Assembly (NCBI GenBank): GCA_950295325.1
Contig: OX485803.1
Location: 19,716,001-19,780,000, forward strand
DNA: 64,000 nucleotides
From: Polytrichum commune
Lineage: Eukaryota; Streptophyta; Polytrichopsida; Polytrichales; Polytrichaceae
Direction of reading: 5' to 3'
The position numbers were made by a program, and so were the translations under genes. Shown here in pieces: positions 24,113 through 54,030 of this stretch (its first letter is position 1; each line of letters begins with the position of its first letter). The notes below the pieces were generated by a model. That model saw nothing but the letters and a program-made list of their open reading frames with translations. It made no database searches and was not told where the DNA came from.

Positions 24113-24319
24113 CTTTGCCAGTATTTTGTACCATGCTCCTTCCTTGCGAGCAAGTCAAGCCTTACTCACCGAGCTATGGGAAGTCCGTTGTTCCAAATAT
24201 AGACAAGCCTGCAAATTTCTGACTCGAGTTCACTAAGAAAGCCTCCACTTCAGTCTGTTCAACTGCACTCTTGAATATTTTTAAGCAGCTCAACGTCGAT
24301 TCACCGGAGTCTCCTCAAA

Positions 24320-32383: not shown

Positions 32384-35300
32384 TCATTCTAGAGTCGGTG
32401 GGTGTACTACTTCCATAAGTTCTTCAAAACCAAGTACACCCACCTTCTTCAGTTCCTCGAGCGTGTCTGGACCTATGGGTTTCACACAACTATAATGGAT
32501 TGCATCTTTCTTACAACCCAACTTGGTGTGGGACTTTGCTATTTGATCCTTAAAGTAATCGGATGTGAACTCCTCCATGTTATCATTTCTAATCATCAAA
32601 TCCACTTTGTTGAACACAACGATGACCTCTGTCTCAGCTCCGAGATTCTCCTTCAGCTGCTTGTACATCTTTACTTGTGGCTTCTTGATATCACACTGCC
32701 ATAATTTTAACATGTAACAAATAAGGCTGGTTAGTTGCGATCAGTCGAAGCGAGTGTGGTCCCCTCCTAAAATAATTAGCAAGATTAGACGTTCAAATAG
32801 GTACACATTGTATGGCAAAACCATCAAATTATTATGTAGCAACTAACAAAACATTACTTTTGACTTTATTGTAAGGTATGTGGGTGTTATTTGGTTACTT
32901 TTCTTAAGCAAATACTTATACATTTTTTTTCTATTGGTGTGTGAATAGGTGACGATCATGAACAAACACCATAAAGACACATCTTTAAAAAAAGGGTTTG
33001 GAATACATCCTCAAATTCGATTAACTACTCCGGAGTCTATGCGGAATCCATACAATTTGGAGGACTTATGTATTCAACGGAGGAATCACCAAACATGCAC
33101 CTCTAATTAAAGGTCTGATTTTCATCCGATTTTTTGCTGATGCTCCATCGAAGATTTCCAATGCAACACAAGCTTTGTTGTGTAAATCTATTTGATAGAA
33201 GTTCGGGAACATGCAAAAGGAACCAAACAACACCCACATTCCTTAACAAGACATTTAGTAGTGCTCTCAAACTTATTGTAATTTGAATCCTTTCCATTCC
33301 TGTCTTTTCATGTTGCATCCTCTCATAAAAGGAAGTCACATGCTAATTTCTAACAAGATACATGCACCTTCAAACGGTGTAAGTTGGTTGCGTCAATTTG
33401 CAACCAAATTACAATTGGGTAACAAAGATGTGGACATGTGACGCTATGATCAATCCCCATTTACAGTGCCAATGCAAAGGTAGCCTTACCTTAAAATCAA
33501 GAAACATTATAGCAGAAGTGGAGAGTGCCGTGAATTGTTTCCACATTTCTGCATAATGCTCTAATCCGTCGCCGCCTGGGAAGTCCACCAGCCACAATGA
33601 GTTGTTCAACATGTATGGGACTGCAACTTTGGTGTGAGTGCAAATTCCCGTCTCTGGCAACCTCCCACCTGATGGGCCGAATTTTTTCAAAACTCTCTGC
33701 ACACCACCAAAGGTTGTGTTACTGAGCCATTTGGGGCATTGATGACATTACTCAGACTGTGCTTTATATGTTAGATGCACAGCCGGGCCCATGAGAGCTT
33801 GCTTAACTTTAATTAAACACCGGCAAGAATGAAATTAAGGTGACAGCACGGAAGTTTATGGCTCCGAATCAGATTCACCTTGATAAAGGTCGACTTCCCT
33901 GCATCCTCAGCTCCGAAGATACCAATATAATGTACACCGGTCACTACTTTATTGTACAAGGATATTGTGTCGCACACTATCTTGATTCTTTTCAATAGCT
34001 TCAACCTAGACTCCGCTGTTGCCTTCTGAAATTCTTCTGATTTGAAATCAGGAACATCCTTCGCTTTCAGAGAGTGAGCTCTATTGACCATGTCTTGAAA
34101 TTTTGAGCTGCTTCCTTCCACTGGAAACGCACATTTCACATGGTTTCAGATACAAACAAACAGCTTTTAAGTCTTGAGAAGTGAAACAGTTTCAGGTAAA
34201 TACATCGGCCTTTTTTAAAAAAAAAAAAGACATCATTGAAGGAGTCAGTAATAGTGATAAACATTACCAGAGGTACTGAAGCTCACAGTAAAATAGCTCA
34301 CATTAGATTCCTTCCACAATGCCTTGAATTTATAAACTTCTGGATTACAAAGGAAAATTGTAAATTCTTGTTTTTATTCCCTCTGTAGTTTGAGGACAGA
34401 TCTGCTTGGGTTAGCTCACCTATTTTATAAAGCACCATCTCCAGATGATCAACACTGCAGCTGTTTGCTCCGTCATCATAGTTCAGCCGCTCCGTAGAAC
34501 CCTCGGACCATTCAGAAGACTCAAGAATGGCAAATTCCAAGACCAAATCATATCCATCTATTATCGTCCACTGATTTGTGAATATGAGGACACCTAATAC
34601 AGCCCCCAACGTGATAGGCAATACCAAAAAGCCAGCAATCATTGTTGGTATGGCCAATTCTGGACGACCTTGTAGAAATGACGTCCATTTCCTCTGTAGG
34701 TTCCGTCTTCGTGCTCCATAGTCCACTTTCAAACTGGAGTTCAAACAATCACGAGTCAAAAAAGAATTATCTCTGCCAGATCATTTTCAAAATTGACAAG
34801 GAGTTTGTGCGTTGAACAGGGATCTGAAAACCACAGTTTTCTTCATACGTTGGAAAGCAGGTTGTGATCCTAGTAAAAACAATGCAATCCATTTGTAACC
34901 TAGAATTTTATAAATTCACACAATTTTTTACCGAGATGAGAACATACCGGCCTGTCAAACATTTTACAACCGACTTAAACATGAAATTTATCTCTTTGAT
35001 ATGATTCTCAAGATGTCCTCCATTGGTGTTGGTGAATGTGGTCGTCTGAGTAAGTTTTTTCGACACTCTTTCCCCTTTCAAAGAAGGTACACCTGCAATA
35101 ATTTGAAGTTGGTGAGAATTGAAGGATCTAGGGACTTTGCAAAGCTTCTCAGGACTAGTATTTCAAAGGAACTGGAGTAACCACGACAAATCATTAGCTG
35201 AGCAAGATCATGATTTAATATATTCGTAAAAGTGATGATAATAGATTCTCACAAACAGCAGTGGTCCATTACTACCTTCAAGTCCAGATTATGGTTGATA

Positions 35301-38300
35301 TTTAAGTCAAAAGCGGGTGAAAGCTTAATATTATATAATTGGAGTTTGTGTTCCAATAGAAACATAAATGTGGTGAACCTGAAGTGACATTTTGGATAAT
35401 GCTTGAGGATAACTTCTATACTGCAAGGTTGTTTTGATAAAAATGCTCAGATGCAATAGGTTTAATCTTGAACTGAGGTTCTGCTCACAATGCATTATAT
35501 TGTCCAAACCGGTCATGATGTCTCTGTTTGAGTCTGGGCGAATACTCAAGGGTGGAATGGCCTTCACCATCAATGACTGAGCAATCTGTAAAAGCTTCCT
35601 GCTGGCTCCAATTAGTCTTTTCTCCTCATTGGGATACTCCTGAAAACACAGGCAATAATCAATTCAAAATCAGTTGCACACACTTGAACAATTGCCATTG
35701 ACACTTATCACAGCTAAATTATACGCAACCACTAACCCTCAACATCTGAGTCAGTATTAAATTGATTACTAGTTGATCCTGAACATCTTAATCAACATAT
35801 ATCCAAGTTAGCGGGAAGATATTCAGTGTTATCAGATCAAGGGAGGTTGGACGAGTTAACAGCACATGTGTATATATATATATATACACACACACACCTG
35901 TCAAGGGGCACATTATTATTCTGGCCCTCGGAAAGGATGGACGAACCTCAGGTGGCAGGATGGGTTGATTAATTTCCCCAAAAGCTGTTTTGATGAAAAT
36001 CATAGAAATAGCATTCTCTGAGTCCTTGTGTGCTTGACCTGAATCCATCGGGCAATGAGGATCATAAATCATCAAAAAACCGTCACTTTGCGTCGAAATA
36101 CTCCAAGGTTCCTGTCCTTTGGATCCAGTCACACTGACAGGTTCACGAAGAAACAAAAGGTTCTCTCCCTTCACAACGATTACCCGTTGGTTGGCGTTCG
36201 GATCCAGCACCCTCCAAGTTGAAATTGTGACCTGCAATTAAAAGTGAGTACGGATCAGTTTCGAACCCTTCCAATGCACCGAGTACTCTTTCATTAAGAT
36301 CCCCGCTAATAAAATTAAAATCTACATTTCTGCGCCCCCTACCCCCGGGGTGGCATCTATCAGTAGCACTCGCAGGAGTCAACCGTCTTTAGAACATGGT
36401 GCGGAGCTGCTAAAACCATTTCTTACAAGCAATGTTTAGGAGCTACTTTCGCATTATGAACAAATTTTAAGGCTGTACGTCCTAAGAAATGTTATAGATT
36501 TTCTTAGAAGTAAAATTCAACAGGTAGGGGGTCTGGATGGTCACCCTTCTTTCATAAGAAAATGCTTCTAATTAATTTAAAAACTGACATCTGAAAGTGC
36601 AATCCTTTTCTGACTCAGACACAAATCATAGCAATGCATTTTTCTCAATGCCCGCTTTTCAAGCATGTGTCTCGTTGTGAACGAACAAATCATCAATACA
36701 TTAGAAACTGTATTAGAAGAGAGTAGAAACTGTTCTAAAAGACAGATTTGTCACCCCGGGCCCCTCGTGACCTTACCTAATAAAAAAGAGAATGAATTGC
36801 TTACCATAGGAGGCGGAGACGTGACAAGGGAACGGTCGCCCGATGACAGGCGAGATTGTGGATCAGAAACGCAATCACCAAGACCAGTTGGGACATCAAT
36901 AAAACAAGCTGCAATCAACGCAGTTTTATAACTGTCGATCCGATGGTGTTCCAGATGTCCCTGAGTAAACGGAACATCCCTCTGAAACAGCTCTTGGATC
37001 TGCAAATCACCGCCATAACACTGGCTAGAACTCCAATTTCCGGAGAGGGATATGTACTGCCCAATCGGGTGGAAATCAGGCTTCCGGAGGGCATCTAATG
37101 AATCAGATTCTTTCATGGACATGTCTTGCAATTTACTCGTGATCTTCCGGGCACCACTGACAACACCCCTAGCAGCGAGTTGAGCAGTCTCCCGTCCTGC
37201 TACTTTCAATGCTCCTACAGCCCTACCGTCCTCGAATCCGTCTATACAGCGCCCAGCAAAACCTCCTAGGGACTGCAGCGCACTGTCAGCTCCGTCAAGC
37301 GCGCTCTTCCACACCTCCTTAACCGTGCAGGGAAGATTGTGCAGCATGTGAGGCACATAGTCATTTTGGTTCACAAAGTTAATAAACCGCCACTTGTACT
37401 TCTCATTCCCGTTGATTTTCCGGGCAGCCTTCTCATCGCATATATGTGGTGCTCCGAATGCAATCGACACCAGAGAGTCAGGGTGTGTCTCCTGCAAGCA
37501 TTCAGAACCACCATTATCAAACACCCTTCCAGATTCAGTACCACCATGAATCTTAAAGGCCGCGTACGTATGACCACACCCCCATTCCATCTCAAGAACT
37601 TGCCTCAACTAAAGCTAAAGGCCGTGTATCAAAGTCCAGGGAGAGTGTGGGCAAAATTTGGAAGATTTTAAGATCCAAGTGTTTCCAAGTCCAACAGATT
37701 ATATGTTGATATCTTTCGACTTTCCTTTATTCATATTCTATAGACTCCTCTAAAATGATCGGAGATTTGCCTAAAGTCTTAATCTCACCTCCACCGACTG
37801 ATATTTCAAACTCAACCGGCCCATCTGTACGTATGGAGTAGTCGATTCTCATCATTCGTAGCCATGTATGACCGAAAGTGGCTACATGGCTACATGGCTA
37901 GACTTGTGACATGACTAGCGATGTTTTCATTTTCACATATCGAGTAAAATGCAAGAATACTAAATCATTCATGAAAATCTAATGCTCTATATTGCAAGCG
38001 ATGGAAACGGATTTGTATTGAAGCCAAACCGGACGTACGTTGATCACTAGCCCATCATTCTCCAGCAAAAAGCGAAACAACACTATGTGCGCAACTGCCC
38101 CGCCCAGGCTATGCCCGCAGAATATGATGCGTTTCTTGGTGGCAAGCAGGCCAGGTAAGGGGCTCTGGTCCGAACTCGCGAACGAATCCGCACGATCATA
38201 AAATCCTTTGTGAAAATAGCCCCCAAACTTTGCTGCGTGGCGATCTATCCTCATATCACTGGCCACGTCCTTCAGATTCTTCGTACCTCGAAATGCAACA

Positions 38301-38542
38301 AAAACACAATTTTCTGTATATGCCACAAGGAACTTCTGTGCGTTACGAAGCTCCTTAGCCATGTGGATCTTCTCAAAAGTTGCGTTGGGATAGGCTGTTT
38401 GAGCTGTACGAAATAAATGCTCTGCCCCTGCATTGTTCTTATAAACTGCCATTGAGCAGAACAGAGCTCGAGAGAGGTCATCTCTGCTTAACTTGTTATC
38501 AGAATTGCCCAGCAAAACCGGCCGATAACTTAAAGGCTCCAT
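32384..38542 (-). CDS. Gene A: class-3 lipase-GTPase fusion, triad intact
   Basis: Nine minus-strand exons: 38542-38039, 37491-36805, 36231-35947, 35639-35489, 35092-34948, 34733-34420, 34120-33879, 33696-33490, 32695-32384. They join in phase to 948 residues. Residues 1-397 are a class-3 lipase (PF01764) domain: FVAFRGTK near 81-88, nucleophile Ser145 in GHSLGG, Asp212 in NQNDYVPHM, and His351 in the H-x4-Y pattern (HRIDSY) typical of plant class-3 lipases. An Ala/Gly-rich helical insertion (about 219-330) is absent from gene B. Residues 398-492 look beta-rich. One hydrophobic segment spans about 617-643. A C-terminal GTPase domain has the P-loop GAEDAGKST (765-773), DFPG (814-817) and NKVD (874-877). 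It looks like a membrane-associated GTPase of dynamin/IRG/AIG1 character joined to a lipase. The start ATG at 38542 follows a possible acceptor (ttgcag, ending 38552), so a 5' untranslated intron is likely. The donor after exon 3 (gttcgt) is weak. Function is unknown. Confidence 0.88.
32872..33246. mobile_element. MITE in intron 8 of gene A
   Basis: The left end AAGGTATGTGGGTGTTATTT and the right end (reverse complement AAGGAATGTGGGTGTTGTTT) form a terminal inverted repeat of about 24 bp around 370 bp of non-coding DNA. The whole element lies in the intron between exons 8 and 9 of gene A (33489-32696). A partial relative is at 12826-13005. The GGGTGTTGTTTGGTT-type end recalls PIF/Harbinger (Tourist-like) elements, but no clean target duplication is visible. 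Confidence 0.6.
35868..35898. repeat. TA/CA microsatellite in gene A intron 3
   Basis: A short run of alternating TA followed by CA dinucleotides inside the intron between exons 3 and 4 of gene A. No function is implied. Confidence 0.7.
37668..37830. mobile_element. Fragment of the TGATCGGGG MITE family in gene A intron 1
   Basis: Matches the interior of the MITE at 43229-43448 over words such as aagtccaac, atgttgatatctt, ttttcctttat-like and ctctaaaatgatcgg. It lies in intron 1 of gene A (38038-37492). The termini are degraded. Confidence 0.5.
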
Positions 38543-38551
38543 GAGCGTCTG

Positions 38552-39700
38552 CAATTGACAACACGCCACCGATTTATAAAAGGTAAACAGCCCTAATTCG
38601 GTTACTATCTCAAACGGACACCTATATTCGAGTGGTCATGTGTAGTTAGGTGTGGATCTAAGAACATTCACCAAAAAGACATATTGTTGGATATGAAACA
38701 CACACAATTAGTGCAATAAGACTAGGAAATCTAAATCATGTCCTTAGGCATTTTCCTTGTATTTTTGGAGCTGGTATGAGTATCTTATAAAGTTGTCAAA
38801 GTGAAGAAATGTTATCTTTTCTATTGAATGACCATATAGTAGGTACCTCGATTATACTGATTATATCTTGAGCATGTAGTCCAATCTCTTTCAACCCCTA
38901 GAGGAATGAGGGTTTCAACGTGAATCAAAGATATGTAACTCCAAAATATGAAATATCTAAGACTTAATTCCGAAATGACATGTAACACAAATGTTTAGAC
39001 TGCTGAGTTTTGACCACATCCATGCAGTTAGAGTAAGGATCATCAGCTTTGAATTTTCTTTTTAGAACTGTCAAATCATTTGTGAAGGAATGTTTTCTAA
39101 AAAATTATCAAAATTTCAAGATGTATCAGAATTACTTGGACTTTCACACGGTTGGTTAAATGTATGAGTTTCATAACTTGGTGGAGAGAACCAAACATAT
39201 TCATGTCGATGACCTTGTTATTTTTCCCAAATTGTACATTCTGTACCAAAAATATTCTTAGGGGAACCACTTTAAGCCTCAAGGTGCATATCTTAGAGTT
39301 GTTCATAGATCAGTTCGATCGGTTTGCTCTAGACAGTGGAAATCTTCATTAGTGCAGAGTGCAAGGGGTGGAATTTTTTTGTTTAATTTATTAAAAAAGA
39401 AAAGTTCACCTCGAAAAATATATATCGGAAATCGATTGCAACCACATTTTGGCTTCCTCTTAGACATTTAGGGGTTAGACACAAGTGAGTGCATACCTAA
39501 ATCGACAAGAGCGAGTGGCTGAGTTGACTTGTTTCGATTACGCTGCTTGCAACGAAATTCAGGCGACGCCCGGGCAGGCCAGTGCGGTGATCCAGCAGCA
39601 GCAGCACTACATTCCCGCTCGGATGAGCTCCAGAACATGTAAACTACATCAACCATGGCGTGCACACAGTAAACAAAAGCTTAAGGGACGGCGGTGGTGT
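38552..39700 (-). other. Probable 5' leader exon and intron of gene A
   Basis: On the minus strand, about 39670-39595 resembles the region just upstream of gene B's start (44095-44155): both contain gttgatg, then agctc, then gcgggaatgta and a gctgctgc run. In gene B this block is joined directly to the coding exon. In gene A a donor (ttag/gtatgc near 39497) and an acceptor (ttgcag ending 38552) would remove about 945 bp and join the leader to the coding exon. The leader's own open frame is out of frame with the protein, so it would be untranslated or contain a short upstream frame. The 38620-38900 part carries a dispersed repeat. Confidence 0.45.
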
Positions 39701-40039
39701 ACCAATTAGCACCTGTCTATATACATGAATCTGAGGCCAATGATGGAAGCATGAATCGCTACACTACGTTACATCGGCCCTGACCAGAGCCAAGGTCGAT
39801 CTCCGACAAATCTGAGAACGGATGCACAGACCTACTGGATATTGCAGCACAAGCACGGCAGCAAACGGCAAACGGCAATCGACGTCACGTCGCCACCGTG
39901 TAAGCTCCCCTCATGTCGATCTTGGCAACACAATGTCGTTGCCAAGCTCCCGAAGCTCTCTGATCAAAGCTACACATACTTTGTGCCACTTGCATCTTCT
40001 GACACTTTTCCGACGGTTCCCGTTAGCGACGGGAAGCTT

Positions 40040-40368
40040 GGAAGCGCAGACTTGACCGTGGGGTCAAGTTTGAGTTATTTGAGGCCACATGTACTGCACA
40101 GTGCGCACTAGTATAAATAATAAAACATGCTCCCAAGCAATCAAATGCGGTTCCAACAAACTGCGCTGTTAATTCGACATGGCTTATCTTTTGAAGTTTT
40201 GAGGGAGCAGCTTAGATTGGGCATGTCGCTTTTACATTTGTAGTGTCATGCATATATAAGTTACATGTTTGCTATCATAGATACCCTTTCAGTGTAGTGC
40301 AGACAACCGTGTACAGACATTTAGCTTCGACACTGAAACCTACTTTGAGGAAGGTACCTGGAAGGCAT
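40040..40368 (+). promoter_or_regulatory. TATA-bearing promoter-like module, copy 1
   Basis: Starts GGAAGCGCAGACTTGACCG and contains TATAAATA at 40112-40119, preceded by a conserved ctgcacagtg word. The same module occurs again at 40369 and 43566, all in plus orientation, toward gene B. Copies 1 and 2 form a tandem pair with a unit of about 330 bp that shares a downstream atgtttgctatcatagata segment. Confidence 0.55.
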
Positions 40369-40902
40369 GGAAGCGCAGACTTGACCGTGGGGTCGAGTGT
40401 GAATTATTCTAGGCCACATGTGCTGCACAGTGCTTACTAGTATAAATAGAAAACATGCTCCCAATCAATCAAATGCGGTTCCTCAAATACAATCAAGATG
40501 ATTTGATGCGATTTGAGGGAGCAGCTTAGATTCGGCATGTCCCTTTTACATTTGTAGTGCCATGCATAAGTAACATGTTTGCTATCATAGATACAGTTTC
40601 AAAAGGATGTCCATAACCATGTGGTCTGCATACTTCGAAGCGCTTCCCCACTCCACACGCCTGGTTGTCAGTTAAGTTAACTTAGAACGGCACCGGCACG
40701 ACTGATGAGGCCAGTGGGTTTCATTGCAGCAAATATAGACAGCTGTGTGCAGACAATTAGGTTATGTCCATCCATGGGGGCAGGGCGGGGCGGGTGTGCA
40801 ATGTGTAAGATATTTGAGGCCACACCGTGACAGAAGTGTAGCCTTGATCAGACACAATTTTAGCTGAACTTTCTTCTCCGATGACGTTGTGCGGCCGTGA
40901 CT
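40369..40902 (+). promoter_or_regulatory. TATA-bearing promoter-like module, copy 2
   Basis: Begins GGAAGCGCAGACTTGACCG, with TATAAATA at 40441-40448. The block about 40297-40902 matches 43493-43890 in two pieces, apart from an extra 200 bp (about 40521-40725) present only here. Its 3' part holds a conserved ccgtgacagaagtgtagcc segment and a gatgacgttgtgcggccgtgac segment that may be a transcription-factor site of the TGACG type, also present upstream of gene B. Confidence 0.5.
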
Positions 40903-40965
40903 CTGATCAAGGCTACACATACTTTGTGCCACTTGCATCTTCTGACGCTTTTCTTACGGTTCACA

Positions 40966-41398
40966 TTAGGGCGTCCCCAGCAGCCCCGCCATAGGGCATG
41001 CCAACGCCAAAAATGAGGCATCCCGGGTTCTTAGGTGGCGGTACCGGCATAAATTGATCCCCACCAATGTCCGGTCCGGCATAATTTAGAAGCGGCCCGG
41101 GTATAGTAAAGGCCTTCCAACGCCATAAATGGTTCATATGGCGGCCCTCCTCCGGCCCGCCAAGAGATTACTTTAATATCAGATACTCCGATATCCTACT
41201 TTATCCCATGTCAGATAATAGGTGTCGTTGTCTTATTGATTGCTTCCTAATTATACCGGGGGTATGCCTAGGCTTTGGTGGGCTCTTACTCAAGATGAGC
41301 TGCCCCGCCCAAGATGGAGGGCTCCCCAAACACCCTAAACACCATATAATATATTATTTTTGGCGGGTTGCTTTCTATCTCTCCTGGGGATGCCCTTA
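40966..41398. mobile_element. PIF/Harbinger-type MITE with TTA target duplication
   Basis: The element 40969-41395 starts GGGCGTCCCCAGCAG and ends CTCCTGGGGATGCCC, giving imperfect terminal inverted repeats of about 15 bp. It is bounded by TTA at 40966-40968 and TTA at 41396-41398, the 3-bp target preference of PIF/Harbinger elements. The interior is GC-rich and non-coding. Confidence 0.75.
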
Positions 41399-41561
41399 GT
41401 GACCTGTAATTGCGCTTTTTTATCTTGGCAACCACTTGAATAAGTTAGTGAAAATCAAATCTCTATGTCAAAACACTGTATATCATGACTTAGAAACGGC
41501 GTTCTATCGGACAACACCTGAAAATTCTCACACCCTTTGAAGTTTTCAGCAATTCTTACGT

Positions 41562-42522
41562 CCATTACGGAGTGAAATTCGGCGGACATTAAGTCCCCCC
41601 CTACAAACTATGGGGGTGGTCATATCCAGGCTGAGGCAACCCTCCAAGGAAATTTTTGAACCCGACTGAAAATTGTTGTCCGCCCCGCCCAACTTCGAAA
41701 AAAAACATTGCCCTTGCATTCTTGAAGGCCGCTTGACTACAAATCCCATATTGAGTGCACTTCACCTTCAAGGTCTAAAATCCAATATATATATATATAT
41801 GTGCACTTCCAATTAGTAAATAAGCATTTCATTGGGATTTCATTCCGGAAGTGAAACCATCAATGAAGCATGTAATTAACTTGGAAGTCAAAAAATTACA
41901 AAATCCTCATTGAGGTTAGAATTTTTATGACTTACCATTTGAGATTGTCTTTGTCATTCTAAAATGACACTTGAATTTAGTGTGCTGATTTAGTATGTAT
42001 ATTTTATAATATTTTAGGGTAATGCCATCTACTTTCACAAGTATTCATATGCAATTAATTATAAAATATACTTACTGGAATTAATTAATTAACTAAATTT
42101 AATTACTGGAGTTAATTGGAGTTGATTCCAGTAATTACATTTTATGATTAATTATTCTGACTTAATTTGGTAAGCATACTTTCTGATTTATTTGGGCTTA
42201 ATTAGGATTAATCATAATTACTTAGACTTAATTACATTCAATCACACTTAATTGGTTTGAATGCGTATGAATACTTGTGAAAGTAGACGGCATTATCTAA
42301 ATATTATAAAATATACATTCTGAATCAGCAGACTAAATTCAAGTGTCATTTTAGAATGACAAAGACAATTTCCAATGGTAAGTCATAAAAATTATAATCC
42401 TCAATGCTAATGAGGATTTTGTAATTTTTTTGACCTCCAAGTTAATTACGTGCTTCATTGATGGTTTGAATCACTTCCGGAATGAAATCCCAATGAATTG
42501 CTTATTTACTAATTGGAAGTGC

Positions 42523-42555
<33 letters not shown>

Positions 42556-42784
42556 TAGACCTTGAAGGTGAAGTGCACTCAATATGGGATTTGTAGTCAA
42601 GCGGCCTTCAAGAATGCAAGGGCAATGTTTTTTCGAAGTTTGGGTGGGGGGGGGGGGGGCAATAGTTTTCAATCTCGTTCCAAAGTTTCCCTAGAGGGCT
42701 GCCCCAGCCCGGATATGACACCCCCCATAGTTTGTACGGGGAGGACTTAATGTCCGCCGCGAAATTCCAATACCCCGTTTATGG
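41562..42784. mobile_element. 1.2-kb foldback (palindromic) element
   Basis: Two arms of about 500-540 bp (41562-42065 and about 42245-42784) are inverted copies of each other over nearly their whole length, around a 180-bp AT-rich centre. Paired landmarks are ggcggacattaagtcc versus its complement near 42740, the TA runs near 41790 and 42525, ccggaagtgaaacca-like segments near 41848 and 42475, and tgtcattctaaaatgacac-like segments near 41955 and 42345. Differences are small indels and point changes. The transcript would form a very long hairpin. No coding frame is found. The target duplication was not resolved. Confidence 0.85.
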
Positions 42785-42839
42785 TATATAGTCACGTAAA
42801 CTATTTGCAAAGGGCCTAAACTAGATGCTTAGAGATCTC

Positions 42840-43200
42840 AAAGTGTAAAGCCCACTATTTGTCAATATGATTCCATTCATCAACATAAGTAACTTCAATA
42901 AGTAACATAGTAAGGGAAAAAATGTTTACATTATGATATTTAGAGTAGCATATTGAGATACTTTAGATGATAGTCTTGTGTTCTAGTATGCAAGGGGAAG
43001 ATATATTTAACATACTATTAACAAATATCATGTGTTAAAATATTAGTCTGTCAGAGGAAGATATTCTTGAGCAAGTGTCACTTGTAATATGCTTTTGTCA
43101 ACTTGTAGACCATTGTATAACGTAGGCATGCATCTTATAACACTATTGAACATGCTCCCGCCAAGATATTAGTAAGCGCACTTGACTGTCAAGTGACATT
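42840..43200 (-). repeat. Dispersed repeat, inverted partner of 9560-9850
   Basis: Reverse complement of the repeat at about 9560-9850, with shared words including gcatgcctacgtta, acaatggtctacaagttg and cttactaatatcttgg. The family is unknown. Confidence 0.55.
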
Positions 43201-43228
43201 TATGGTGAAGTTGTTTAATCATCCCCAA

Positions 43229-43448
43229 TGATCGGGGAACCTTTTGGGCATAATCGGTTGAGATCCTAGTATTTGCAAGTCCAACTAATTACATGTTGAT
43301 ATCTTCCAGTTTTCCTTTATCAAATTGGGGTATATTATATAAATTGCTCTAAAATGATCGGCAATTTTCCTGAAGTCTTGAACTTCAACCGGTTATTTCT
43401 CAAACTCAACCGGTTCATCTGGAACTAACTGCCGGTTCTCCCCGATCA
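43229..43448. mobile_element. 220-bp MITE, TGATCGGGGA ends, second copy
   Basis: Starts TGATCGGGGAAC and ends GTTCTCCCCGATCA, with terminal inverted repeats of about 14 bp. It has the same length and family as 6024-6243 but the opposite orientation. It is inserted just upstream of the third promoter-like module. Confidence 0.7.
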
Positions 43449-43492
43449 TAGGAATCATCGCATGTGACACTAAATACCATTATCAGTGAAAT

Positions 43493-43890
43493 GTGCAGAC
43501 AACCGTGTACAGATACTTAGGTTCGATACTGACACGTACTGTGAGGAAGGTACCTGGGAAGACATGGAAGCGCAGACTTGACCGCGGGATCGAGTTTGAA
43601 TTATTTAAGGCCACAAGTGCTGCACAGTGCACACTAGTATAAATAGCAAAGATGTTCCCAATCAATCAAATGCACTTCCTCAAATACAATCAAGATGATT
43701 GATGCGATTTGCAACAAATACAGACAGCTGTGTGCAGACAATTAGGTTATGTCCAGCCATGGGGGCAGGGCAGGGCGGGTGTGCAATGTGTAAGTTATTT
43801 GAGGCCACGCCGTGACAGAAGTGTAGCCTTGATCGGACACAATTTTAGCTGAACTTTCTTCTCCGACGACGTTGTGCGGCCGTGACTTGA
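43493..43890 (+). promoter_or_regulatory. Promoter-like module, copy 3, proximal to gene B
   Basis: Contains GGAAGCGCAGACTTGACCG at 43566 and TATAAATA at 43638-43645, about 540 bp before gene B's ATG at 44188, so it is the best candidate for gene B's own promoter. It continues with the ccgtgacagaagtgtagcc and gacgacgttgtgcggccgtgac segments shared with copy 2. The first part (gtgcagacaaccgtgtacag at 43493) also matches copy 2 at 40297. Confidence 0.55.
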
Positions 43891-44187
43891 AGGGAGCCTG
43901 GGTGGCGAAGACGATCGCTTCTATCTGCTGTGCTTGTGCGGAACCTCTGTGCTGGTCTCAGAGTTGTCGGTAAGTCGACCGAGGCTTCCATAGTAAAGTA
44001 ATCTAAGCATGCATGGTTTTATCCGTGGTTTCCGATGCATATAAGTGCTGATTGGTACACTCAAAGCCGGTCCATCGACTGATGATCATCAATGTGTGCA
44101 TGCCACGGTTGATGACGTTCTGCAGCTCCAAGCGGGAATGTATTGCTGCTGCCGACTTTCACTTCGATAAGCAAGTGGACAGATTCT

Positions 44188-47100
44188 ATGGATTCCAGAC
44201 GTCCGCAAATAAAGGACCTGGCACGAGCATATTTTTGCTCGGAGGCAGTTCTTTTTGAAAAGAATGAAGAGATTAAGGAGTATCTGAATGAGACCAAGTC
44301 GGAATTCCCAATCATCCATTTTGATGTTGTTCATGTATCAGTTGATCAGGACAATGATCTGCGCGGCTTCAAATTTTTGGTTGCTTACGCCGCTGATGCT
44401 ACTTTCATTGCATTTCGCGGATCTCGGACTTTTGAAGACTTAGGCCGGGAGAGTCAGCCGTCGTCCTCTGCCAGTGGGGTTCATGGGGTGGTTCTGGAGC
44501 TTTCCCGCAGCTTCATGGGATCTGGTTGCAACTTGCTCGCTCAATTGTCCAAATCGGAAAAGCGCATCATCTTTTGCGGGCACAGATTAGGGGGCTCAGT
44601 GGCGCACATGGTGGTGGTTCGCTTCTTCACGGATTTTGAAGACAAAGTGGTGAGCCTTTTGTGGCGAATTTCCATTTTTATCCTTTTGTTTTGCTTGCTT
44701 TATCTTCGTTAGCTTCAGTGTTGTGCTACTTACAATAACGACTGATGTAATTTTTCGACGATTCTGATATTTTCGTTCTGGTCGATAAACACTTTGAAGT
44801 TTGCTACTTCCTCTTTCTAGGTTCATTGCTAGGTTTCTTATTTCATCTTTCTAGGTTAATTTTGAATTACCTTGGCCGACTTTCTGAACTGGAGCATCCA
44901 ATTTAACGCCTCAGAGATGCAGTCATGTCGTTCCTATTTTTCAACATAAGAGGATGGCGCCTTTAGTTCTGGTCGTGAAGCCCTACTCCGTTTTGCTCAT
45001 TCGTCGATGTTCGCATAAAATTCTGGATGCTCTCCATGCGTTTATATTGCTATCATCGAATATGAAAAGACTTAGAGCCTACGCTTTCAAATCTTAAGTT
45101 CTCCTATACCTATTTGGCCACATAATCCCTGAAATTAGTATAGCTGCTCAGATTTGAGACTGTCCAAAACTGCGCTACTTGTTCTTCCTCGGTACTTCGC
45201 TGAGGATGCCATGTGATCGATACTGATACCTCAACGCATTAATTTGCGATTTTTCCTTTAATTTGCAGGAGGACCTGGACCCTAACACAATGATCTCGAT
45301 TGCATTCGGCGCCCCCAACATATGCGGTAACAAGCGCGCTCAAGAAATCAATAACAATGCTCATCTCAAGGTGCACCTCTTCAACGTGACTGATGAATCC
45401 GATCCCGTGGCTTCCCTGCAAGATGAATTTGAAGGGCACGAGGTGAAGGGGGATACTGCAGTTCGATCTGGCAGGTTTCCTATAGGAATTATGGTACCAC
45501 TGCGAAGCGGGTATCACCAGTCTCGTTCGAGTTCCGTTATGGGCTCATGTGTTCCAGGGAAAATCAAGCCCTGGAGCCGGAAGAAGTTTAGCAAATCTTA
45601 CAAATCAGCAGTGATTGCTGCGTATAAGTCCTCCGCCATGTCCAGCGATGAAGACGATGACTCTCCAAAGACGAAGGTCGAATCACCAGCTCCAGATGTA
45701 ACGTGGCCTTCCCCCTCTGCTTGTCTGCTGGAGCCTGGTCTTGTTTGTTAACAATATCACTTTACATACTAAAGTAGACATATGTGATGTTCTTCGGATG
45801 CTTTCTCTCTGTGCCAGCTTCTTGTAGGACATCAAGAACACAGTGAGTGGAAGATGATTGGCAAATCCTAATCTGCATGCCCGTAGTCATTTAACTCAAA
45901 AATTTTAGAGTTCATATGAGTATCTTATTGATTGTCAATGTGAAGATTCTCGTGGTCATTAAGTGGTCATATAGATTTTTTCAATCATGTTGACTATTGA
46001 GCTTAGAATGGTTAGCATATGTTGAGCATGTAGTTGAATTTCTTCTAGACAAATGTCTTTTTGGTGTCAAGTTTTTGATCCACACCTAACCACAAATCGT
46101 TCAAATATATAGGTGTCCATAATATTATTGTGGTGTTGGAAATAGGCACGTCAATTTTTTGCCCCTCATAAAATTGAGTTGTGAATTTTCCATTTCAATG
46201 ACCAGTTAGCAAACTTGTTTAATATTTTCTTTTCGCTAGCATATATTTGCTAGCAAGTGGCTAAAGGCGAAGACCATAATTTGTACATGAATTGGCCTTC
46301 ATGCACAATTTTTTTGATTCAACAAAGAAACCTAACAATCAAATTATACCTTTTAGAAAATACTTTGCAAAGGTGTTAAGGGTGAGTTTCCATGTAGGCC
46401 ACTTGCCCACTAGATTTTAGTATGAATAACGAACAACTTGCCCAAATATAGATGGAATTTGGTGGGGTAGGATTTTGTATGTCCCAACTAGCTACTCTCA
46501 TCTTCTCAATGTGGGCCCACCTACTATTAACCTCTTCCTTTTAGGTTAACAAGGATGGACTTCTAGACCATCGGTCTTTCAAACTTTGGTGATCAACACT
46601 TGTAAGTCAAAGAGTGCTTTAGTGGGCTCATGGAATTCTAGCAGCCCATGTCTAGTAGGCCACCAAAATGTGGTTGGTTAGTGGGTTGTGCTTATCTACA
46701 TGAGACCACCTCCCACCCACTATTATCTAGAATCTAGTGGACGAGCGACCTACGTGGAAACTCACTCTAAGAGACCCCATGATCTTAGACATGCTGAGTA
46801 TTTATTCTGGATAAGAATTTTTGTTTTAAAATTAAATTGTTTCAAAGTATACCAAGAAAATCGTTCCGTATGAAGGTTTTCTTGACATGAGGTGCTGTTG
46901 ATGTTTATCTTTCCAGGTCTTGTCTGCAAAATGGAAGGCATCAGATTTCAAAATTTTCATCACCATCAAGGGATTTAATCTGCAGTATCTACGTGAGCCT
47001 GTGAAATTGGATGGATTGCATCCGTGGGATACCATACTACAGACAGATTCTGAACTTGTTATTACTGCTCCTGACAACACTAAAGCAGAGGATATTAAGG

Positions 47101-50100
47101 CGGTGTCCATGGTCATCGTCAAAACTGCATTTGGGGCAACAACACGAGTTCTTCAACAGGTAAGTCCTGTTTGTGCCATGTGTTTCTTCACAAGTGTGAA
47201 CAGAATTGATCTGGAATTAGCAAGTTTTGAATCACTTAATATGTGTATAGGCACATGCATGTGAAATATGAATAGAAAAGTTGTATTTTCCATGTACAAA
47301 TCTAAACCAACAAACTTGGCTAGCGATTTGTGGCGAGCATGTACGGGGTCTAGCAAAAACCTCCCCTTTATAAGTTTCATCCCAACTTAGTGTCACTAGA
47401 CTAATTTGGGTTCTTTGATATTGACTTTGAGGTCAAATCAATTCAAAGTATAAAACTAGACTCAAGTTTTATTAGAGACTCATGTTCACCTTCATCTTTC
47501 ATGGTCGCCACAAATCCATGCATGGCCAACAAACTTACATGTGTGCATGCATGTATGTTATACATACGTTGATATTATAATAGTCTTAGACAAAGATCTA
47601 GACTATTCCCCAACATTTAAAGGACTGGCTCATATTACACCAAATTGTTCCATATTCTACAAAAGAAAAATATATACGTATTCTCAAAGAGTGAATGAAA
47701 TGTACTTAATAATGTGACAAGTTTGATTAGAAGTAAAATAAGTGAGGCAAATATAGATCATTAGTTTAAATAATAAATATTTTTATTACTTATTATTTAA
47801 TAGTTGTTTTGACATCAAAAACGAAGGACAAATATGACAAGACAAAAGGTGCTCTAACCTCTTTGAAGAACTATAGAATGTAATGAGAAAAAGTAGACAA
47901 ATTGTGCAAAATATTGCATACAAAGGGAAGAAAACAACTTAGTTTTTAGTTTCAAAAGTAAAAATATTTTTATTGAATACGTGTTTTCTATTCCAACCAA
48001 ATAAAATCTATGTCCCCTTTTTAGCACGACTTCCAAGTGGAAGTGGTCAGTGAGCAATGAGATTTACTAAGAGCATTAAGTTTTTCTGCACATCTTTACA
48101 CATCACACTACTAGTAGTTGACATTTATATACCTATTATATGTCAATTTTATATCAATTAAGCTATTTTGTGACAATGAACCCGAATGATCAACCATCGA
48201 ATGTGCACCAATATTAATTTTCGAGAACGTTTTTATGATATCAATCATTTTTATACCAATTACATGTGTAGGACATTGGTGAAGATACTACGAACATTCC
48301 TTTGAAAGTGTTGCCTAGAATTGTGCAAACTTTCTTTGTCTTGGCCAGGCCACCTTTGTCCTTTCTTCCATCAACAAAGACACTTGAGGATTTGGATAGC
48401 ATCATACAATGTAAGCTTCTACTACACTCATTATTTGCAAGAATTTGGATTTCCAATTCATACTAGACTTACTATTGGTATGAAGATTTTTATTATTATA
48501 GATTGGTCTTATTTTCTATGCCGTACTACATTGACAGAAAGGTCATACATTAGTAGTTGAAGAACCTCAACTCACCCTTGGAAAAGAAAACATTTGTATA
48601 CGCAAAATAATTGTACTTCAACACATGTGGTAACATGTCAATATATTGTATGAACCGAGATTGATAGTGTGGTATTATATGTTGCCTCCTTCTTTAATAG
48701 ATTTGACAATGTTTGGGATACCTTGCAACATTCTTTAACAAGTCTAATCAACTTAATAACATCTTAAGGACAACTGTATACAATATTAAGGCGATTTAAA
48801 TCACATGCATATTGCAGCCAAATGTTAACCCTTATTTTACAAACTTCGTATGCCATTGCCATGAGTAGATTGTAATTAATTGGATTAATAGCTTTGTTAT
48901 GACGTTGATATGCATCAGGTGTACCGGACCTAGAGGATAAAAAACTCTCTGAACTGTTGAGAGCCACAACAAAATTTGATGTTACTAAAGAAGACCTCAA
49001 AATATATACCAAAGAAATGAACGATGTTATTGACTCAGTGATTGAGTTCCTAAGGAGAAGGTTAGGTCTACTTCATTGACATGTGGTACAAATTTTCCTA
49101 TATGTATATGTTACATGGAGCTTTATAGTAAGTACTTGAGTTTTCATTAATAACGTTGTTCTTGAAGCAAACATTAGAGATTGACTAGAAATGCCTGAAA
49201 TTTGCTTTAGGTCGTATGACATGTTCATAACATAATACTTGCACATTGAATTAACCCAAATGGTCCAATGTGATCTTCCTCAAGAAATCTATGCAAGAAA
49301 AAAGTTAAAATAAATTCTTCGTCATTGAATTAATGAGGTAAAAGTTGTATTGTTGCAACTTGTTCCATACTAGCCTTGTTTATGAGGTCCTAGAATCTAG
49401 AATTGCTTAGACCTTTGTGTGTGGCTTGTGGAGACCTAATCATGTATCTTGCACAACCTTCCTCAAGACCGGTTAACCCCTACTTGCATGGGAGCAATCA
49501 TATGTGGTCATCCATTTGAAGGGAATGGGTCTCACATGCCTTTAAAGGGGATGACACTTCCCCAAAGTTTCGGGGGAAGTTCTTGACCCATGGAACTCTC
49601 TAGCTTCTTTAATACAATTTTAAAAAACGAGGTTACAGTTCTAGAGAGCTCAATATTCACATGCACATGCTTTCAACTGGTGTCAACTAAATTAATAGTT
49701 GATTTGTATGTCCGTTGCTACCATTATAATAGTACTAAAACCTTTTTGTTTGCGTTTGTAGTTACATTCTACAATTCTCAAAAAAAGACCAAATGATAAG
49801 AATCTTTGGATGTGTAGCGGGGTATTCTATCTTGACCGCGGGTCTTATTTTGCTACCATTCGGAGGAATAGGCTTAGCTATAGGTGGCGCAGAAACCATT
49901 GCAGCCTGTGTGACTGCTGGCGGTGTCCTAAGTGTTGGCGGTGTTAGGGGTATCATCATGCTTGTTCTTGGTAAAGGACAACACATGGTTCGTGAGTACA
50001 CTGAGATGCTGGAACTTGCAATCTATGAGGCATCTCTTTGGTCTATCGAGAAGTCCAAAAACATTCAAAAGCCTAAATTGTTACCAAGGGCTACTTCAGA

Positions 50101-52516
50101 CAACAAGCTTACAACGACAGAATCAGAATCATTGCTTCAAGAAGAAGGTAGACATGCCCAAACTCAGAATTTGTTATACCTCACTGCGTTTTCTTTCTTT
50201 ATTTATTTTTATTATCTTTCCTTCCTTCCTTCCAAGTACAATGAATGATTATGATTCTAGGCAAATAACTTCAAATTCCATCATATCCCAATCCCATTGA
50301 GCATTACTGTACATGATGTCATACATCTTCCTCAAGTAGCATGTTATTTTCAGCGTAAAGCCTTGCCACATTTCTCTTTGAAATCGGTGGGCTTCTTACA
50401 TGCCGTAGTTACCCTAGGGGATTTTGGCAGGATGTATAGCACCATCTGAGCCGTCCATTTCATCTAAATCTAGAGGTTGAAATCTGAGCAAGGGCTTACG
50501 CTAAGTAAAGCCCTCAGGCCGTGGCCTTCTAGAAATACGGGCCAACCCTCGGGTGGGCCCTTCTTCATGGAAAGCCCCGGCCCTAGAGCCTTACTTAATT
50601 ACTTTCTAGATGTTTCAAAGAAATCGGTAAACAGTGCGTCCACTTTGCATGTGTCGATCTGCATATAGCTTCGCATATATATAAGTATGAGTAAATAATT
50701 CCATGACTGACTGTTTCTCTTGTAATTTGCTCTTTTGCTGATTTTATGATCAGTGAATACAAATTGAATGCTCACATTTTTTTAGATTGTGAGTTTAAGG
50801 GATGCGCCTTTCTCACCTATTGATAAACCTGCACCTGTAATTCAGTTGAACGCAGTGGGAGCCATTTGGAGCGCATGATTGAGGAGATTCGCAAACCTGG
50901 GAAAACAAATATTGAACTCAGCTCCGAAGCAATGCAAGCAGCAAGCGTAGAATCCAAACACAATTTGGTACGAAGGATGCACATCGTGGCTAAGACAGTT
51001 GCCATGTACAACAAGGAAGTTAAGAGCACTGAGTTTCTGGGAATTGTCGGGGCGGAGGACTCTGGGAAATCAACCTTCATCATGGTTGGATAAACCACTC
51101 CTTTCAATAGCTGGCATTTTCACATCGTTTTTCTCCTTCTGTACATGATGTCATAAACTGAACTGTTGGTTTATCTATGTCTTTATCTGTAGCTTAAAGA
51201 TTGATGTTTGTTGTACAGAAAGCCATCAGAAGATTTGGAGAGAACCCTTCTGGAGACGTGCCTGAAGTAGGATTTAAGTGTCACACCACGACTGTAAGGC
51301 CGTACAAGCTCAAAGGTAGCTTGTATCTGGTGGATTTTCCAGGCAGCGATGGAACGGAGAATTATGCAAAAGCTTGGAAGCAATTCACATCGGTTCCCAG
51401 TTCATGTATCCTGCTTCTTGAATTCAAGGTATGTTTACCCCAGGGTGGCAACTTTTCCTTTAGAAAAGTTGTTCCTAATCACTTCTAAGACCTCTAATGA
51501 ACTGATGATTTGTTTTCTTATCAAGACTCAGGAGAAACATGCTTGGAGAGAGCACATTGAGAAAAATCCATTGATGCATTTTGTGTTTGAATTAGAAAAG
51601 CCTTGCCCTTACAAATGACATTTTTAGAAAAAATTAGAACAATTGTTTTAATCAGGGTCACCATCCAGACCCGTAGGTGTTGAGTTTCACTTTTAAGAAA
51701 AAAATTACATTTTTAGAATATATAGTCCTAAGAATGCTAATACTACAAAAGTAGCTCCCAAATCATGCTTCTTAGAAATGGTTTAGCAGCTCCAAGGATG
51801 TTTACAGAACCTGTGAGTCCGAACAATGGCACCAGGGAAAGATGTTTTAAAGGAAAAAAAATCAAAACACTGAGTTCCGAGTGCTCAAGAAGAAGCTCAA
51901 ATGCTTTCTTGAAGTTAACCTAAAACCACCTGTGCTGCAAAACCGATCATATGGGTCTGCGTCTGTTGCCCTCAACTATGTCTATCATGATATACTCTGA
52001 AGTTGTGTATACGAGTGGTTTTATAACCCACTCAAAATTTGGCCAGAAATGGGAGTTCACTACCTTACGCCCAGTGTAGAGTGAACAATGTTATATCTTC
52101 TGTGAATCAGCTGTCAATACCTAGTTAGCATGCGCTTCCACCAACAAGTTTCGTGTCCTCGCATTGTCATTTAGGGTGACATTAAGAAGGATCAGATGAA
52201 GATGTACAAGAAGAAGAAAAAAGACCTTGATTCTAAGGTCGCAGTTGTGTTCAACAAAGTGGATTTGCTGTTCTCAAACTCGGAGGAAGACAAATTTGAT
52301 GCGGATTATTTCAAGATCCACAAGGTACGAACGGCTGATAAGCTTGGTTGCAATAGCGAGGATGTGCATTATGTTTGTTTGGACCCCAGGAACAAGCAGA
52401 CATTCACCGAGTTGCAGAAGTTGGGTGTGCTTGATTTTGAAGGGCTTGCAAAGAAAATAGGAGGTTGGTTGGCAATGCACTCCGCCTCAGGGTCACATCA
52501 CATTCTGATGGAGTAA
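44188..52516 (+). CDS. Gene B: lipase-like-GTPase fusion, lipase triad lost
   Basis: Nine plus-strand exons: 44188-44649, 45269-45697, 46917-47159, 48272-48410, 48919-49060, 49762-50147, 50846-51084, 51219-51428, 52175-52516. They join in phase to 863 residues. Exon order and all intron phases equal those of gene A. The lipase-like domain (1-297) keeps FIAFRGSR, a VHG block and Asp199 (ESDPVASL), but the nucleophile position reads GHRLGG with Arg133 (codon AGA) and the catalytic His position is Lys260 (KFSKSY), so lipase activity is not expected. The Ala/Gly-rich insertion of gene A is missing. A long glycine-rich hydrophobic stretch (about 487-541) could form a membrane hairpin, where gene A has a single segment. 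The GTPase motifs are intact: GAEDSGKST (669-677), DFPG (719-722), NKVD (777-780). Introns are larger than in gene A and hold dispersed repeats. All donors are GT and all acceptors AG. It is probably functional, since no stop or frame break appears in 863 codons. Confidence 0.87.
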
Positions 52517-52850
52517 TTAAAAGATTAACCCCGTTAACCCTGAAGCGCAGTACAAAAACATGTATTTGACTTGCACACTCCCATTTGTACTTATTATGTC
52601 AAAAGTGACTATCTAAAATGAACTACTTCTTAAAGTTGTGTTTTTTTAATGTTAATTGGTTGAATGCCTTGGTGTACCGTGTTATTGAAGATGTGAGTTT
52701 AGGTGCACAGCTTGGGTGGCCTTTGATGCAAATACATATGTTGTATGTTGATCATCTTAAATGTCAAGCATGAGAGCATTTTTATATTCTCACTACCAAA
52801 ATAATACATTGGCTATGGATTACATTCCTACACACTAACCTACCCAATCT
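52517..52850. other. 3' flank of gene B
   Basis: AT-rich sequence after the stop codon at 52514-52516. It presumably contains the 3' untranslated region. No other feature is supported. Confidence 0.4.
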
Positions 52851-54030
52851 AAATCTAACCCCACTCCAATCCCCACCACAAGATTTTCACAATCAAAATA
52901 CTTTGGCTAGTACAATGCTATGTAATCACCCTACTTAAGGAAAAACCAAGAACTAACCCACACGCCAACCAACACGACACCCTACACCCCGAAATCACAA
53001 AACTAACTACTAATCAACTCTTTCAACATAACACAAGCCTACTATTCCTCCCCCCTCACATGCCCCCTACAACTCACCCCACAACTAAGATATTCTATTT
53101 GGATCTATGGGTAATAGACCCAAAACCTCGTAATAGACCGGTGTCAGCTTGGCGCATCCAACCGACCACACCACCACCCTCCAAGCCATACATTGGGCTA
53201 TAACGGCAACCAAAGGAGACCCCAACACAATCACCATCCTAGTTGTCAACAATCAAGACTAGACTGCCCAACAACTACCCCTCAACCAACATGTCGATAT
53301 CCGCACTTCAGCAACCACACCACCACACAACATATGTTATAACCCCACATTGGAATGGCCAAAATTCTATCAACACACAAAACCATCCCTCACATCCATA
53401 AATTGCATTCCATAATCAAACAAGCCACCCATGTGACACACAAACCCCACAAGACCTACAAAGTACCCTACAAAGAAACCACAACAATCACATAGACACC
53501 CACCAAAACCAACCTACCCTCACCTCCTACAAGGTTACATTTTCCCCACATGGAAACTAGCACCCAATAGAAACTTCCCCCCTGGATCAACCGCCACACT
53601 ACCCCTACCAAATGAATACCACAACATTCACCCCCTAAAATACAACCCGGCTTAGAAATTTATAGCCTCGATAACAACAATGTCCAAATATCAAAAAGAC
53701 TACCAAGATACCAATTTAACTATCCTTAAGCCAAACTCAACACTATCCTAATTGCCATAAAAACCATACCAAATCACCCACATCGACACCTATATATCTT
53801 CATGGACACCCTCAACAATATATTCATGATTAACAACCACATTCAACACCCATCCTCACAACACCACCACCTTGGCAAGCTACCTATAGCCACAGTACAC
53901 CAAATATATTGGACCAAACACAAAATATCCACCCACAATGTCCGCACACACACATGTATTATTGGAAATAAAAAAAACAAATGTTGTAGCAAACAAGGGA
54001 GTACAAAAAGACTAACCCCCCCCCCACCTC
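52851..54030. other. Strongly G-poor (A/C-rich) strand-asymmetric segment
   Basis: For nearly 1.2 kb the plus strand is rich in A and C and very poor in G: many 60-base lines have only three to six G. Composition changes abruptly on both sides. There is no long reading frame and no simple repeat unit that I can define. It may be part of an unrecognised transposon or a satellite-like sequence. Confidence 0.6.

Follow-up and report, generated by a model that had tools for sequence, protein, structure and literature searches.

A moss protein family joining a class-3 lipase domain to a GTPase, with an intact and a broken lipase triad in neighbouring genes of Polytrichum commune

The seed-plant immune regulators EDS1, PAD4 and SAG101 carry a class-3 lipase-like N-terminal domain, and EDS1 and PAD4 are regarded as non-enzymatic scaffolds in immunity. 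Proteins of the EDS1 family are not known to contain a GTPase or a hydrophobic segment. EDS1 is described as pairing with PAD4 or SAG101 (PMC9654257). Here, we analysed two neighbouring genes, A and B, in a stretch of 64,000 nucleotides from the moss Polytrichum commune (GenBank assembly GCA_950295325.1, contig OX485803.1, positions 19,716,001 to 19,780,000; hereafter the window), in which a lipase-type domain of this kind is joined to a GTPase within one protein. The best solved match by sequence to the lipase of A is indeed EDS1/PAD4 (E 2e-6; profile E 1.1e-8), whereas an ordinary class-3 lipase from the same genome (L003) used as a control matched PLA1 and fungal lipases and no EDS1 chain at E<=0.1. 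As this was a single control, we treat the closeness to EDS1/PAD4 as a lead. Unlike EDS1, PAD4 and SAG101, no EP domain was found in the Pfam matches of A, B or the scanned relatives.

Two further groups of proteins bear comparison with A and B. In alpha/beta-hydrolase nucleotide-binding leucine-rich repeat receptors (NLRs) a hydrolase is joined to a P-loop NTPase; these are described as most abundant in liverworts, Sphagnum and Ceratodon, and as proteins which may bind or cut lipids (PMC10952240). They differ from A and B in their NTPase, which is of the NB-ARC type there and a TRAFAC GTPase here, and no NB-ARC or leucine-rich repeat (LRR) Pfam match was present in A or B. The IRG, mitofusin, Leo and dynamin-like GTPases resemble A and B in their DxPG-type G3 motif and membrane context, with weak profile matches. 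None of these GTPases is known to carry a lipase domain.

Gene A (32384–38542, minus strand) and gene B (44188–52516, plus strand) lie head-to-head with nine exons each, and in the spliced models, which were built by hand from the genomic DNA, they stop at 32384 and 52516, respectively. The spliced products of 948 (A) and 863 (B) amino acids are paralogues of a moss family (about 850–990 amino acids) in which one open frame runs from a class-3 lipase-type alpha/beta-hydrolase through a beta-rich domain, linker and hydrophobic segment to a TRAFAC-type GTPase. All 16 introns of the two genes are GT-AG, and the eight intron phases (0,0,0,1,2,1,0,0) are identical in A and B. Both domains scored above their curated Pfam cut-offs in both models, with 69 bits in A and 34 bits in B for PF01764 (Lipase_3, cut-off 22), and 27.4 and 26.6 bits for PF01926 (MMR_HSR1, cut-off 21.9). 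An earlier note on this DNA, made from the letters of the sequence, had proposed that phased exons link a lipase to a C-terminal GTPase with G1, G3 and G4 motifs, by way of a beta-rich middle. The open spliced frames, the matching phases and the two Pfam domains bear out this linkage, the beta-rich part is present in both genes (exon 3), and the GTPase motifs are in place, with G1 reading GAEDAGKST in A and GAEDSGKST in B, and DFPG (G3) and NKVD (G4) in both. Across the exon junctions the peptide is continuous in the relatives, with length variation at junctions 1/2 and 3/4; P0017 stops ahead of the exon 6/7 junction in this comparison. An IPT/TIG identity for the beta-rich part was considered and rejected, as a TIG match appeared in one of six pieces only (E 0.055) and fell under the cut-off.

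The models were derived from genomic DNA in which introns of approximately 0.13–1.2 kb part the exons, hence a lipase gene lying beside a GTPase gene could have been misjoined. However, two relatives of B carry the entire frame without interruption on short contigs (P0009, 855 amino acids on 3067 nucleotides; P0012, 864 amino acids on 2967 nucleotides). These contigs are too short for a gene with the eight introns of B and are therefore most likely complementary DNA (cDNA). Furthermore, Ceratodon and Sphagnum records, annotated independently, give the joined product as single proteins (854–958 amino acids for the rows in the first listing), and the exon order is repeated in five loci of this genome. 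A is 66% identical to the Ceratodon protein P0007 over 917 columns and B is 46% identical to P0009 over 787 columns, and these homologues exclude a chance fusion. The cDNA-sized contigs and the independent annotation in other mosses led us to reject separate lipase and GTPase genes, a reading to which we attach almost no probability; on the same evidence, separate lipase and GTPase transcripts, which the earlier note had named as the outcome that would overturn it, appear to be absent.

The lipase domains of the two genes differ in their catalytic residues. In A, the triad of Ser, Asp and His is kept (GHSLGG, NQNDY and HLEHHRIDSY, as aligned with the relatives). The class-3 lipase proposed for both genes holds for B as far as the fold profile goes, but the triad of B is broken, with an elbow of GHRLGG in which Arg replaces Ser, Lys in the His column, and the Asp present. 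Among 28 family rows the elbow residue is Ser in 18 and Arg, Gly or Ala in the other 10, and Asp and His accompany the Ser in 18 of 18 cases. Both Ser and His are lost in B, P0009, P0012, P0015 and a further copy in this genome on C7, the elbow of which is GHRLGG as in B. In a 28-row tree built from the lipase and beta-rich parts with the Ser column masked, the Ser state changed four times, and the starred branches alone force three of these changes. A tree limited to the 22 rows of 700 amino acids or more required two changes; here B, C7, P0009, P0012 and P0015 form one clade (support 99/98), and P0011, P0013 and P0014 form a second clade without the Ser (100/100).

By its profile matches and motifs, the C-terminal domain of A and B is a TRAFAC-type GTPase. 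Of the 22 rows with at least 700 amino acids, 21 retain the P-loop Lys, the exception being P0030 of Marchantia paleacea. Elsewhere in the family, P0028 has GKP instead of GKS, the G4 Asp is altered in P0024 and P0031, and P0025 is truncated after the P-loop. Among the best 60 of 156 matches to solved chains, the GTPase profile first met EngB (E 4.5e-7), the Arf-like CIN4 (9.2e-7), GRN1 and Era, and only after these, weakly and near E 0.01, Mitofusin-1 and interferon-inducible GTPase chains. In this respect, with EngB and CIN4 scoring better, A and B differ from the IRG, mitofusin, Leo and dynamin-like GTPases. The dynamin family profile (PF00350, cut-off 27) gave 15.2 bits in A, 13.7 in B, 27.0 in P0012 and 28.8 in P0027. 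The IRG profile (PF05049, IIGP) matched neither A nor B and stayed under its cut-off of 24 elsewhere, the best score being 17.8 bits in P0012. PADLOC profiles matched dynamin-like LeoA in P0012 (E 1.1e-8) and LeoBC in P0007 and P0012 (E 2.1e-6).

A hydrophobic segment ahead of the GTPase, proposed for both genes, is present in the exon-6 part, but as a single peak only in A. Hydropathy over 19 residues peaks once in A (2.53) and twice in B (2.06 and 1.75), and the C7 copy also has two peaks. Most full-length relatives possess at least one hydrophobic peak in this part, and in A it is probably a membrane segment.

We searched the whole genome (407.8 Mb) for further copies. The GTPase of A returned 15 exon matches, which resolve into five loci (A, B, a second pair A' and B', and the copy on C7), so that the two copies of the earlier note are both real but make up only part of the set. 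The lipase of A returned 12 matches, comprising the same five loci and two lipases on C4 and C1. These two, the stand-alone L039 and L040, are the nearest lipases outside the family in this genome, with 29–35% identity to A, and no family GTPase match at E<=0.01 occurred near them (9.5-kb stretches). The A'/B' pair lies approximately 145 kb from A/B on the same contig, is also head-to-head, and shows DNA identities of 97.2% (A/A') and 98.0% (B/B'). The frame of A' is broken in exon 1 by insertions of +6 and +1, while the exons of B' are all free of gaps. The C7 copy has the exon order of A and B with one extra intron in the exon-2 part, and a GC-AG intron after the exon 8 equivalent (L026 8866). 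In a stepwise comparison of B with B' (L025 against window positions 43030–52660) we observed one base difference over the first ~6.6 kb, including exons 1–5, and an abrupt divergence from exon 6 onward, with up to 21 of 200 bases different. This near-identity followed by abrupt divergence suggests recent gene conversion or exchange in the 5' part, with a boundary near exon 6.

Identity within the family was compared between the lipase core and the GTPase, omitting fragments and rows with an incomplete GTPase (P0001–P0006, P0017, P0019, P0020 and P0022–P0026) as well as the divergent P0030 and P0031. In the 10 complete rows with the Ser, mean pairwise identity is 48% for the lipase core and 42% for the GTPase, the lipase being lower by at least one point in 6 of 45 pairs with one near-tie. 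In the five rows of the clade of B the values are 36% and 54%, and the lipase is lower in 10 of 10 pairs (pairs are not independent in either set). This swap indicates that the loss of the Ser in the clade of B was accompanied by relaxed constraint on the lipase, with constraint on the GTPase kept. In the second clade without the Ser (P0011, P0013 and P0014), identity is 86% for the lipase and 90% for the GTPase, and the lipase is lower in all three pairs, but these rows are too similar to one another for the contrast to be informative. Between B and B', the ratio of amino-acid to silent substitution rates (dN/dS) in exons 7–9 is 0.14–0.26, from few changes (6 amino-acid, 7 silent). As a whole, the pattern of constraint supports the view that the lipase is catalytic in proteins of the A type and a non-catalytic fold in those of the B type, though it does not prove activity.

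Members of the family are found beyond Polytrichum. At least six rows from Ceratodon purpureus (P0007, P0015, P0018, P0027, P0028 and P0029) and at least 12 from Sphagnum are among the family matches. The lipase and GTPase occur in one row in Sphagnum jensenii, compactum, magellanicum, troendelagicum and balticum, and in the rows of Sphagnum tenellum and fallax the GTPase is missing or cut. The Ceratodon purpureus and Sphagnum proteins are uncharacterised and share the whole architecture with A and B; the relatives are named in databases as hypothetical, unnamed, ‘Fungal lipase-like’ or ‘G domain-containing’ proteins, and these names carry no function. Literature searches returned no description of a moss lipase–GTPase family among the papers listed. 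No Physcomitrium row was present among the matches listed, in a searched set which may not include Physcomitrium. The earlier note named no standard land-plant family with this domain order. None is known in seed plants, but in mosses the pairing forms a multi-copy family (rows with both domains from Ceratodon and five Sphagnum species).

More distant matches are few. The alga Klebsormidium nitens has a partial row (P0003) with the GTPase and hydrophobic part only, and Marchantia paleacea gave a weak match (P0030, 997 amino acids). In P0030 the lipase triad is intact, the beta part is faintly discernible and the C-terminus lacks a P-loop. We rejected it as a mirror case with a live lipase and a dead GTPase, the GTPase profile reaching only E 0.041 in its C-terminus in a search of six sequences. 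P0031 (1128 amino acids) has the lipase–GTPase order, lies far from the moss rows, and keeps the triad and P-loop with a changed G4. From this order in P0031, the pairing may be older than the mosses or may have arisen twice. A bacterial origin, or bacterial copies, was also rejected, as a scan of genome contigs by full-length alignment gave 82 pattern hits and none confirmed by tblastn; the scan covered genome contigs, with metagenome and viral collections outside it.

The adjacency of the two gene types may extend to Ceratodon. P0015 (Arg, KC19_5G132800) and P0018 (Ser, KC19_5G133100) have close locus tags and contigs of equal size (19,969,424 bp), and the 22-row tree places P0018 beside A (98/97) and P0015 in the clade of B. 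The Ser gene and the Arg gene adjoin here and in the A'/B' duplicate, an arrangement which hints at a retained pair of putatively catalytic and non-catalytic paralogues.

We propose, with moderate confidence, that A is a GTPase-controlled membrane lipid hydrolase and that B is a pseudo-lipase GTPase, perhaps the partner of A. The exon-6 segment would anchor A in or on a membrane, where GTP binding and hydrolysis, perhaps with dimerisation of the G domains, would turn its lipase on and off. B would act through its GTPase alone, with the dead lipase fold serving as a binding surface, and could pair with and regulate the A protein, whose gene lies next to it head-to-head. These steps from sequence to mechanism are ones that we infer. 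Nucleotide-controlled action on membrane lipids, as suggested in the earlier note, is possible for A only, as B is without the Ser and His; the signalling scaffold derived from a lipase, suggested alongside it, fits B. Several points weigh against our proposal. Conservation of the triad is not proof of catalysis, and the His is retained in 5 of 10 rows without the Ser, hence losing the Ser does not always lead to losing the other catalytic residues. A strong hydrophobic peak is missing from the linker of the full-length P0016 and P0027; the segment may therefore be peripheral, or may be transmembrane in only part of the family. Between A and A' there is no sign of constraint, with an overall dN/dS of 1.03 and, in exon 9, 8 amino-acid changes against 0 silent ones, as would be expected of a copy whose frame, like that of A', is broken. 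The linkage in Ceratodon is read from locus tags and contig size only, and linkage of Ser and Arg genes may simply mirror a tandem origin.

All members, including A, could instead be non-enzymatic scaffolds like EDS1 and PAD4, in which only the GTPase works and the lipase fold does no more than bind ligands or partners. This would agree with the four Ser changes on the family tree and with EDS1/PAD4 being the closest solved chains to the lipase of A, when L003 lists none of them at E<=0.1. However, Ser, Asp and His occur together in 18 of 28 rows, and in the Ser rows the lipase core averages higher conservation than the GTPase, as expected if catalysis matters, so we consider this alternative possible but rather unlikely. 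It is far less likely still that the copies arose by duplication among repeats and are now decaying or without function. The broken frame of A' (exon-1 insertions of +6 and +1) and the repeat-rich intergene would be explained in this way, but A, B and C7 have full frames, B' is free of gaps in every exon, relatives stand at 66% (A) and 46% (B) identity, and the GTPase exons of B show purifying selection. Decay of B as the principal explanation was rejected because the clade without the Ser holds five members with open frames from at least two mosses (this genome and Ceratodon; support 99/98).

Alternatively, A and B, like the linked pairs in other mosses, might form an immune-type module of an active and a pseudo-lipase GTPase which has been copied and has diversified under pathogen pressure. 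Exon 6 is 90–91% identical between the duplicates, with dN/dS of 0.98 and 1.33, and this would fit such a history. Yet exon 6 shows a weak excess of amino-acid changes relative to exons 7–9 in the B pair (Fisher test on rounded counts, p 0.037) and none in the A pair (0.69), and the pooled test is not significant (0.29); we therefore dropped diversifying selection on exon 6. The head-to-head pair duplicated 145 kb away, the close locus tags of the Ceratodon Ser and Arg genes, the number of Ceratodon and Sphagnum rows and the best solved match to EDS1/PAD4 all favour an immune module, while the Pfam matches contain no LRR, NB-ARC or EP domain; on balance we find this reading doubtful. More speculatively, and with a similarly low expectation that it is correct, mosses might possess a paired GTP-switched module for lipid signalling or immunity, in which a catalytic lipase–GTPase and a linked pseudo-lipase–GTPase form an obligate membrane heteromer, in logic like EDS1–PAD4/SAG101 but with a fused GTPase switch.

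Table 1. Exons of genes A and B and the region between them, in window positions.
Feature	Position	Strand	Basis
Gene A exon 1: start codon, class-3 lipase N-part, nucleophile elbow GHSLGG	38039..38542	-	model, PF01764
Gene A exon 2: lipase C-part, catalytic Asp and His	36805..37491	-	model, motif alignment
Gene A exon 3: beta-rich domain (possibly IPT/TIG-like)	35947..36231	-	model
Gene A exon 4: linker, read as helical	35489..35639	-	model; junction residues agree with relatives
Gene A exon 5: helical linker	34948..35092	-	model, junction residues
Gene A exon 6: hydrophobic segment, probably membrane	34420..34733	-	model, hydropathy
Gene A exon 7: GTPase G1 GAEDAGKST	33879..34120	-	model, motifs
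Gene A exon 8: GTPase G2 Thr and G3 DFPG	33490..33696	-	model, motifs
Gene A exon 9: GTPase G4 NKVD, C-terminus, stop	32384..32695	-	model, motifs
Gene B exon 1: lipase-like N-part, elbow GHRLGG (Arg for catalytic Ser)	44188..44649	+	model, motifs
Gene B exon 2: lipase-like C-part, Asp present, catalytic His gone	45269..45697	+	model, motifs
Gene B exon 3: beta-rich domain	46917..47159	+	model
Gene B exon 4: helical linker	48272..48410	+	model, junction residues
Gene B exon 5: helical linker	48919..49060	+	model, junction residues
Gene B exon 6: two hydrophobic peaks	49762..50147	+	model, hydropathy
Gene B exon 7: GTPase G1 GAEDSGKST	50846..51084	+	model, motifs
Gene B exon 8: GTPase G2 Thr and G3 DFPG	51219..51428	+	model, motifs
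Gene B exon 9: GTPase G4 NKVD, C-terminus, stop	52175..52516	+	model, motifs
Intergene between A and B start codons, repeat-rich; A'/B' duplicate in same orientation	38543..44187	.	self-comparison, genome search

Within the intergene, an element of ~430 bp (40966–41400) is missing from the A'–B' interval and has many copies at 98–99% identity on several contigs among the matches listed; judged by these copies, it is recently mobile. An element of ~1.18 kb (41580–42760) matches itself in reverse, with large inverted repeats, and many copies at ~75–87% identity were among the matches listed. Stretches at 42.9–43.5 kb recur as inverted copies in the repeats (6.0–6.2 and 9.6–9.8 kb) which flank an open reading frame at 6882–7952 for the C-terminal dimerisation part of a hAT-type transposase (PF05699). 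The window also contains exons of a glycoside hydrolase family 31 gene (15202–19875, plus strand; PF13802, PF01055 and PF21365) and an exon of a DUF829 gene (23204–24154, minus strand). GC skew in 1-kb steps is strongly negative at 29001–30000 (-0.48) and 53001–54000 (-0.57).

Both domains of A and B belong to known families and the joined proteins are already in databases without a name, the family itself being undescribed as far as our literature search reaches. If our reading of A as a GTPase-controlled lipid hydrolase is true, a lipid hydrolase with its own GTPase would place the cutting of membrane lipids under direct nucleotide control within one chain. The repeated loss of the catalytic Ser alongside a constrained GTPase provides a natural experiment separating the two functions.

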